Shown in pieces: positions 53,720 through 55,022 of a stretch of DNA of 64,000 nucleotides. A program made the translations under genes and the position numbers. The notes under the pieces are model-generated. The model made no database searches. It was given only the letters and a program-made list of their open reading frames with translations, and was not told the DNA's origin. The DNA is from Marinobacterium litorale DSM 23545 (GTDB lineage: Bacteria > Pseudomonadota > Gammaproteobacteria > Pseudomonadales > Balneatricaceae), in contig NZ_AUAZ01000003.1 in the NCBI RefSeq assembly GCF_000428985.1, positions 239,324-303,323 on the forward strand, in the 5' to 3' direction. Positions within the stretch are counted from its first letter, which is position 1. Each line of letters begins with the position of its first letter.

Positions 53720-53971
53720 ATGAACATTAACGGCATTTCAGCTCAGAGTGCTGCGCTTTACTCCAGTAACCGAAGCGCAGATGGCGTTCAGCGTGCTGCC
53801 AGTGATGTGCAGGGCAGCGGTCAACCGCAGGAGCCGGAACAGGCCACCGGGCGTGATCCGAACGTCAGTGTTCGTGAAACTACGGTTAATGCCAGCGATC
53901 CTGCCGCTACCACTCAGGTAGTGGAAGAGGCAAGCGAAGCGTTGGGTACGGTTATCAATACCCGTGCCTGA
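53720..53971 (+). CDS. Small Ser/Gln/Ala-rich protein of unknown function
   Basis: 83 residues starting MNINGISAQSAALYSSNRSAD, with a Gln/Pro/Glu-rich middle and a C-terminal helix ending VVEEASEALGTVINTRA. There is no membrane segment and no cysteine. I do not recognise a named family. The layout (MxINxIS N-terminus, disordered middle, terminal helix ending in a small hydrophobic residue) is like that of small proteins found near flagellar genes and SprA-type genes. A weak AGGGTGCA precedes the ATG. It lies 52 bases before the SprA-like gene, with which it may work. Confidence 0.7.
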   Translation: MNINGISAQSAALYSSNRSADGVQRAASDVQGSGQPQEPEQATGRDPNVSVRETTVNASDPAATTQVVEEASEALGTVINTRA

Positions 53972-54023
53972 GGCACGCTGAACCATCGCGTGACAGTAGT
54001 CGTTTAGGAATCCGGGTAGCAGG

Positions 54024-55022
54024 ATGATTACGGCGATCTCGAGTACCTACAGTGCTTACACCAGCCTTCCGGGAACATCGGCGGCCCCCGCGTCGCCTGA
54101 TGAACAGAATCCGTCCCGGGGTGGTGCAGACAGCACGGCATCTCAAGCGGCCACAGCGAGCCGCCCGACCCAGTCTACCGGCACTGGATTGCGGGCGGAT
54201 CAGCAGGTCGGAGAGGGACGCCGTGCATCTGACGTTGAGCAAAAGGCTCGTGAACAGCAGAATCAACAGTTGGTTGATCGCCTTGAATCCCGTGACCGGG
54301 AGGTCCGGGATCACGAGCGTGCTCATCAAGCGGCGGGCGGTGGATTAACCGGCGCTGCGCGCTTTACCTACCAACGGGGGCCAGACGGTCAGCTATATGC
54401 CGTCGGGGGTGAGGTCAGTATTGATGCCCCGGTCAGCACAGGGGATCCGGAAAGGGATCTGGAGCGGGCGCAGACCGTCGCTCGGGCGGCACTGGCACCC
54501 GCCGAGCCCTCTGCTCAGGATTTACGTGTGGCGGCCGACGCACAGGCCGTGGTTGCCCAGGCGCAGGCGGAGCTGTCCACGCAACAGACAGCTGAGGCGG
54601 CGGATACCTCAGGCGACGAGTCTGACCGGAACGATTCATCGCAGGCCCAGCCCCAGCTTCAGGCTGACTCGCGCGCCTCCGATACCGTTAGTCCGGCTGT
54701 GAATGAGCAGAACAGTCAACAGGCCGGGGATGTCGAGCAAGACACGGGGATCCAATCCGCGTCCACGGGCGAGGAGGAGCAGTCAGCGGGGCCCTCCTTG
54801 ACTGAACGGCTGGATGAGCAGGAACGTCAGCAGGCAGAGCGTGAAGCTCGCCAGGAGGAGCTGGACCGTCAGCGTGAAGAGCGGGTCCAGAGTATGGCCG
54901 AGTACCAGGAAAAGATGAACCAGGTTCAGGAGCGGCTCAGCGAAATCAATCAGAAGCTGGTTGAAATTGGTGTGCTTGATCCAGAATTCTATGTGGGTTC
55001 ATTCGTCAACGATCAGGCCTGA
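54024..55022 (+). CDS. SprA-family putative metalloprotease with long disordered arms
   Basis: 332 residues. The conserved core (about 78-175) carries H97-E98-R-A-H101, a HExxH zinc-protease motif, in RDREVRDHERAHQAAGGGLTG. TYQRGPDGQLYAVGGEVSID and ERDLERAQTVARAALAPAEPSAQDLRVAA follow, all diagnostic of the SprA-related family. Around it lie a Ser/Thr/Ala-rich N-terminus, an acidic Gln/Ser-rich region (about 185-260) and a C-terminal coiled coil (about 262-320). No signal peptide is seen. Protease activity is assumed from the motif and unproven. Its end overlaps the convergent esterase gene by ten bases. Confidence 0.85.
   Translation: MITAISSTYSAYTSLPGTSAAPASPDEQNPSRGGADSTASQAATASRPTQSTGTGLRADQQVGEGRRASDVEQKAREQQNQQLVDRLESRDREVRDHERAHQAAGGGLTGAARFTYQRGPDGQLYAVGGEVSIDAPVSTGDPERDLERAQTVARAALAPAEPSAQDLRVAADAQAVVAQAQAELSTQQTAEAADTSGDESDRNDSSQAQPQLQADSRASDTVSPAVNEQNSQQAGDVEQDTGIQSASTGEEEQSAGPSLTERLDEQERQQAEREARQEELDRQREERVQSMAEYQEKMNQVQERLSEINQKLVEIGVLDPEFYVGSFVNDQA

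Follow-up and report, generated by a model that had tools for sequence, protein, structure and literature searches.

The window, i.e. the whole 64,000-nucleotide stretch of the Marinobacterium litorale DSM 23545 genome that was analyzed, contains a short unit of two genes on one strand, a gene for a small protein of 83 amino acids followed, after a 52-bp gap, by a gene for a SprA-related protein. The features that are relevant for the analysis are the following, in window coordinates:

53720..53971, + strand: small gene, an open reading frame (ORF) for 83 aa
53858..53968, + strand: codons for small-protein residues 47-83 (predicted C-terminal helix plus tail), from profile alignments
54024..55022, + strand: SprA gene, an ORF (PF12118) for a 332-aa putative zinc metallopeptidase without cysteine
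54216..54629, + strand: codons for the SprA core, residues 65-202, mostly a confident prediction (AlphaFold2)
54312..54326, + strand: codons for HERAH, SprA residues 97-101
54798..54968, + strand: codons for the predicted long C-terminal helix of SprA, residues 259-315 (AlphaFold2)
54999..55019, + strand: codons for the C-terminal tail of SprA, SFVNDQA, which resembles the tail of the small protein

The gene order upstream of the pair is bioB, bioF, an ORF for 259 aa, bioC and bioD, so that the two-gene unit indeed comes after the biotin operon, with both ORFs at these coordinates and on the same strand, as had been noted from the sequence alone. Downstream of SprA, on the opposite strand, lie an esterase-like gene of the alpha/beta-hydrolase kind, which scores below the cut-off of the respective model, and a gene for an FKBP-type isomerase.

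The 332-aa protein is a member of PF12118, the already known SprA-related family (its score of 98.9 bits exceeds the cut-off of 27.3), for which a zincin fold has been predicted (PMC3650047). It carries an intact HExxH motif, HERAH, at residues 97-101, so that the earlier assignment of the protein to the SprA type and the numbering of its glutamate as E98 are both correct. H97, E98 and H101 are invariant in alignments of 20 and 54 rows, in which all rows other than the M. litorale SprA were picked by a rule that requires HExxH or HExxL. Given these sequence features, the protein is a putative zinc metallopeptidase; its closest named relatives among the matches listed come from Marinobacterium zhoushanense and M. 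lacunae. The AlphaFold2 model, in which the core is predicted fairly well and the block means of confidence are 42-56 for residues 1-60 and 48-57 for residues 201-250, predicts disordered flanks, a compact core with the HExxH motif and a long C-terminal helix. The disorder that had been read from the composition of both proteins thus has a counterpart in low model confidence, namely at residues 1-60 and 201-250 of SprA and 32-50 of the small protein; likewise, as had been remarked, neither protein has a classical signal peptide, with no hydrophobic core seen by eye. Searches of the PDB with the SprA model revealed no clear relative with Foldseek (top E-value 0.82) and, with VIA-align, a top Z-score of 7.2 on residues 140-207 and no zincin among the matches listed. 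The SprA sequence profile matched nothing among the PDB sequences, and no flagellin domain was found in the M. litorale SprA at E-values up to 1.

In 57 related genomes, a single-sequence search detected SprA in 38 and the small gene in 27 (E-values up to 0.1; one of the 27 is a match at 0.099 that contains stops). In other families of the order, the region preceding SprA encodes more proteins of about 70-120 aa that such a search misses. An order-level sample of 244 genomes was analyzed with a profile of 28 of these small proteins. In this sample, the small gene is located directly upstream of SprA, on the same strand, in 79 of the 92 cases, counting the best SprA place over the cut-off in each genome, excluding second places in G223, G227, G163 and G204 and dropping G205, where the match is below the cut-off. 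Among the 13 genomes where SprA lacks an upstream small gene, four carry one elsewhere and, in G235, the matches overlap; altogether, the small gene is present in 84 of the 92 SprA-bearing genomes. Outside this sample, G028 has SprA without the small gene. We further examined named loci, the best 80 of at least 505 relatives of the M. litorale SprA, which, being the best-scoring ones, lean to near relatives. In 77 of these, an SprA ORF is readable (L094, L135 and L140 were dropped by rule), and 58 of the 77 have the small gene upstream (57 with a stricter window). Judging by record titles, the small gene adjoins SprA in 58 of the 65 gammaproteobacterial loci compared to none of the 12 others. 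Absence of the small gene from most SprA loci, which would have spoken against the sequence-only reading, is thus not what is seen in Gammaproteobacteria, where the pairing prevails; among the named loci, the pairing does not extend beyond this class. The additional SprA loci from a phylum-level sample include nine of 15 with the small gene and six without it. In three loci that are assigned to Desulfobacterota by title (L113, L116 and L144), a protein of 117-127 aa, larger than the gammaproteobacterial mini protein, is encoded on the same strand 1.4-2 kb downstream of SprA and matches the small-protein profile with E-values from 2.2e-8 to 6.6e-9.

The order sample yields 121 listed places of this gene at about E 1e-6 or better, excluding long ORFs of the FlgE/FlgK type, a 50-aa fragment (G053:C96) and unlisted rows; when the matches to FlgE/FlgK-type long ORFs are counted, the profile matched 152 of the 244 genomes. 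In 42 of the 121 places (G235 included) the small gene is not beside SprA, and 36 of these 42 are in SprA-free genomes. Thus, in the order sampled, SprA seldom occurs without the small gene and the small gene often occurs without SprA, which suggests that the small protein has the more general role and SprA is its client. A component of a common export route would account for the lone small genes more readily than a substrate made for SprA would. Several of the 20 lone places that were read follow bioD directly and precede an acyl-CoA dehydrogenase gene; profiles were used to check this setting in L183 and L189, and the others were judged by eye. The pair itself follows bioD in some genomes, mostly a BioH-like gene in Colwellia and Pseudoalteromonas and yet other genes in further genomes, as judged by eye.

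The M. litorale small protein on its own matches no Pfam or NCBIfam model, and in this sense it was rightly described as unrecognized. Its family is more informative. Three sets of its members, which overlap in part, were searched at an E limit of 1, and the Flg_bbr_C domain (PF06429), the C-terminal region of FlgE, FlgF and FlgG, matches 5 of 7, 16 of 28 and 23 of 45, with best E-values of 3.2e-5, 3.2e-7 and 1.2e-7, respectively; in the two larger sets, every other family matches at most two members. The M. litorale protein is connected to Flg_bbr_C only via relatives that are 16-71% identical to it. In searches of small-family profiles against 177,635 distinct PDB sequences, FlgE was the top match three times (E-values of 1.2e-3, 0.012 and 4.1e-4, the last one with the largest profile), and in a fourth search a flagellar hook-associated protein came first (E 0.032), followed by FlgE; the search with the largest profile also placed unrelated coiled-coil chains, of a phage tape-measure protein and the coronavirus spike, at E-values of 0.012-0.026, above some of the flagellar chains. 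Each half of the small protein aligns with the corresponding end of FlgE, the N-terminal half only weakly; the N-terminal matches, which are weak and involve FlgE, FlgC and hook-associated protein 1, are collinear with the C-terminal ones. Residues 47-83 of the M. litorale protein fall within the profile half that corresponds to the C-termini of FlgE, FlgC and hook-associated proteins. The N-terminal rod domain of Pfam is not listed for any member of the 28- and 45-member sets. When nine long-ORF matches of the small-protein profile in genomes were opened, five turned out to be FlgE and four FlgK. The AlphaFold2 model of the M. litorale protein, which ends in GTVINTRA, is of low confidence, with pLDDT averaging 52.7, and shows two helices (residues 4-32 and 47-82) separated by a linker. 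Judging from the sequence matches of its family, the small protein resembles a hook or rod protein reduced to its inner D0 helices, with a short linker joining them and no outer domain.

Compared to FlgE, FlgK and FlgC, the small family thus has the C-terminal and, weakly, the N-terminal D0 region in the same order; the differences are that the small proteins are only about 70-120 aa long and lack outer domains, and that their genes adjoin SprA or follow bioD, with no flagellar cluster evident in the loci read. At 83 aa and encoded beside bioD, the M. litorale protein is a relative rather than an orthologue of FlgB, FlgC, FlgE, FlgF, FlgG or FlgK. In the 60 kb around the M. litorale flhA gene, where no flg hook or rod gene was recognized, neither the complete small-protein profile nor the profiles of the two halves gave an axial match. 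Elsewhere in the same genome, we observed a second mini axial-like gene, for 87 aa with the tail GTILDVSA (L182:3024-3287, minus strand; contig C2, match at 205926-206186), which is flanked by genes for an EamA transporter and a DUF4197 protein and has no adjoining SprA, and an ORF that resembles FliE by eye.

Among small proteins of type III export systems, the injectisome inner rod protein YscI and the flagellar protein FliE are helical, rod-like export substrates. The respective YscI family, T3SS_basalb_I (PF17001), weakly matches two of the 28 members of one small-family set (best E 0.0041) and two of the 45 of another (best E 0.017), and the FliE family is not listed for any member at E-values up to 1. 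These weak matches bear on a reading in which the small protein is a minor flagellar part, at the rod-hook junction or similar to FliE or YscI, SprA is an independent enzyme exported through the flagellum, and the two genes are neighbors by virtue of joint production. The lone small genes speak for it as well, with 35 of the 36 places in SprA-free genomes occurring along with FlhA; nevertheless, the presence of the small gene in 84 of the 92 SprA-bearing genomes, 79 times in adjacency, and the retention of the pair in differing neighborhoods suggest more than shared expression, and we hold this reading to be rather unlikely. The putative motility proteins of the YjfB family (PF14070), which are short and motility-linked like the small protein, match one of the seven members of the smallest set, at a non-significant E-value of 0.057; we know of no HExxH partner of YjfB.

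The similarity between the N-termini of the two proteins, which had been noticed in the M. litorale sequences, exceeds that in controls across both families. The pattern, a Met followed by 0-2 polar residues and Ile or Val with Ser, Thr, Asn or Gly near the start, is found in 48 of the 73 distinct SprA and 45 of the 54 distinct small-protein N-termini versus 45 of the 334 control ORFs, in sets where all starts were assigned mechanically and the controls are mechanically chosen ORFs, some of them spurious. At the other end, a profile of the last seven residues of the small protein scores SprA C-termini above those of control ORFs, and a tail of the form hydrophobic-[DNSE]-x-x-[AVI], or its variant shorter by one residue, is present in 45 of the 71 distinct SprA C-termini versus 7 of 312 controls; both terminal patterns were composed after the sequences had been seen. 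Both M. litorale proteins also lack cysteine. Lack of cysteine is typical of flagellar axial proteins, and 75 of the 77 SprA proteins and the last 80 residues of all 58 small proteins are free of it, compared to 306 of 350 control ORFs that contain cysteine; the disordered composition of these proteins may add to this scarcity.

Like termini and the tight adjacency, with the small gene first, would also be compatible with the small protein being a substrate, an inhibitor or an activator of SprA, with the termini alike only because they bind one common partner. Given that the small gene persists without SprA, that its family is axial-like and that no member of the 28- and 45-member sets matches a peptidase-inhibitor family of Pfam, this relationship appears improbable.

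SprA is almost confined to genomes that encode the flagellar export protein FlhA. In the order sample, where the counts ignore phylogeny and the Fisher values computed from them are accordingly not true probabilities, FlhA is encoded in 90 of the 92 SprA-bearing genomes versus 90 of the 152 others, the two exceptions being 74 and 88% complete; in the phylum sample, SprA is present in 24 of 299 genomes, all 24 with FlhA by comparison of the two lists, and FlhA itself is found in 237 of the 299. The genomes of the listed small-gene places have FlhA in 117 of 120 cases; G045, which is 99% complete, has the small gene and lacks FlhA. Among the 57 relatives, G014 and G030, which are 97 and 93% complete, respectively, have SprA without FlhA. 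The association with a flagellar export gene that would follow from export by the flagellar route is therefore seen for both members of the pair. The converse does not hold, with SprA missing from 90 of the 180 FlhA-encoding genomes of the order sample and from 213 of the 237 of the phylum sample.

A search of the region preceding the small gene in 58 loci detected no flagellar sigma-54 signal, and a sigma-28 signal is at most weak (3 of the 58 at 10 or more matches versus 0.4 expected, with no excess in a first scan); sigma-70-like sites occur at about twice the expectation (25 versus 11.4 at 9 or more matches in the 58 loci). The surroundings of SprA were scanned in L140 and in 19 loci that lack an adjacent small gene, 124 ORFs in all. 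No flagellar cluster is evident there, judging from the 25 commonest of the 149 families matched, which include three Flg_bbr_C members and two members implicated in chemoreceptor signaling.

Published data on a relative of SprA come from Campylobacter jejuni. In strains M1 and 81-176, Scanlan and colleagues (PMC5223770) describe CJM1_0395, which they name SprA-related, as present in supernatants of the wild type and absent from those of flgG mutants; their deletion mutants do not differ from the wild type in growth or swimming (swimming per the legend of Fig. S1), and the authors caution that some effects of flagellum loss could be indirect. CJM1_0395 shares with the M. litorale protein the PF12118 profile and the HExxH core and is itself flagellum-dependent in its appearance in the supernatant; the difference is the predicted long C-terminal helix of the M. 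litorale SprA.

These data are relevant to the idea that SprA processes axial proteins while the flagellum is assembled, as a peptidase for maturation or quality control, with the small protein as a recognition decoy or an anchor. The near restriction of SprA to FlhA-encoding genomes and the axial-like partner are compatible with such a function; the absence of SprA from half of the FlhA-encoding genomes of the order sample and from most of those in the phylum sample, together with the normal swimming of the C. jejuni mutant (PMC5223770), makes it quite improbable. Another explanation dispenses with any functional link, such that both genes are passengers on the bioD side and their co-occurrence with the flagellum comes from shared ancestry. 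The pair often adjoins bioD and the acyl-CoA dehydrogenase gene, the co-occurrence counts take no account of phylogeny and adjacency is unseen outside Gammaproteobacteria among the named loci; yet the pair stays intact where the upstream gene differs from bioD, and the three Desulfobacterota loci have another axial-like gene downstream of SprA, so that we give this explanation very little credence.

On balance, we favor the interpretation that the pair is a module linked to the flagellum, which consists of a reduced axial protein and SprA, both exported by the flagellar system, with the small protein probably serving as an adaptor or a minor axial subunit. Under this scenario, both proteins would leave the cell unfolded via the flagellar type III apparatus, the short N-terminus of the Ile/Val-Ser type and probably also the common C-terminal tail would serve as export signals, the small protein would dock in the axial channel or traverse it, and SprA, with the help of the small protein, would reach the cell surface or the medium or would be held on the flagellum. 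The sequence-only reading had proposed shared, perhaps flagellar, export of a protease and its substrate. The flagellar route has gained from the axial kinship of the small protein, the tracking of FlhA and the C. jejuni observations (PMC5223770); the protease-substrate relationship has not. A bolder, more tentative version of the favored interpretation would make the pair a widespread two-gene secretion module, in which an axial subunit reduced to D0 is a dedicated adaptor that carries a client metallopeptidase through the flagellum or retains it there, with N- and C-terminal signals that match between the two.

Export of a metallopeptidase as a part of the flagellum has a precedent in the flagellinolysins, which are proteolytic flagellins (PMC5595980, PMC7643111). 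In these proteins, the flagellin itself harbors the peptidase as an insertion, whereas the M. litorale SprA is a separate protein encoded beside an axial-like one. We found neither the small-SprA pair nor a mini axial protein of this kind described in open-access full text, outside of which most subscription papers lie. A pair with one reduced axial member could provide a simple genetic handle on how the flagellum selects non-flagellar proteins for export.

The interpretation also offers a testable role for an orphan gene that is common in Gammaproteobacteria, probably including PA0505 of Pseudomonas aeruginosa. A gene of the FadE kind follows the small gene in L184 and L189 (profile-checked in L189) and, by eye, the small-SprA pair in the named Pseudomonas loci L104, L115 and L120. 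The neighbor of PA0505, PA0506, is a FadE homologue (PMC5722320), and from this synteny we infer that PA0505 is the small gene. PMC3511353 lists PA0505, as a protein of unknown function, among those captured as surface-exposed on intact cells, which would fit export of the small protein, but the list also includes ribosomal proteins.

Several further observations concern the surroundings of these genes. Next to lone small genes, short ORFs in L190 (2508-2915, minus strand) and L198 (3307-3567, plus strand) resemble the N-terminal part of SprA by eye; they lack the HExxH core and have no Pfam match at E-values up to 0.01. The only record retrieved by plasmid searches, Aeromonas caviae NZ_AP026896.1, contains the pair (L202:4430-5432); it has no annotation in this stretch and is labeled as a plasmid, but, at 4.94 Mb, is probably a chromosome. 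In L132, L159 and L161, which belong to different organisms, the pair is followed by a gene whose product starts with an FLKWAGGK motif, which we take to be that of Dam-type DNA methylases.
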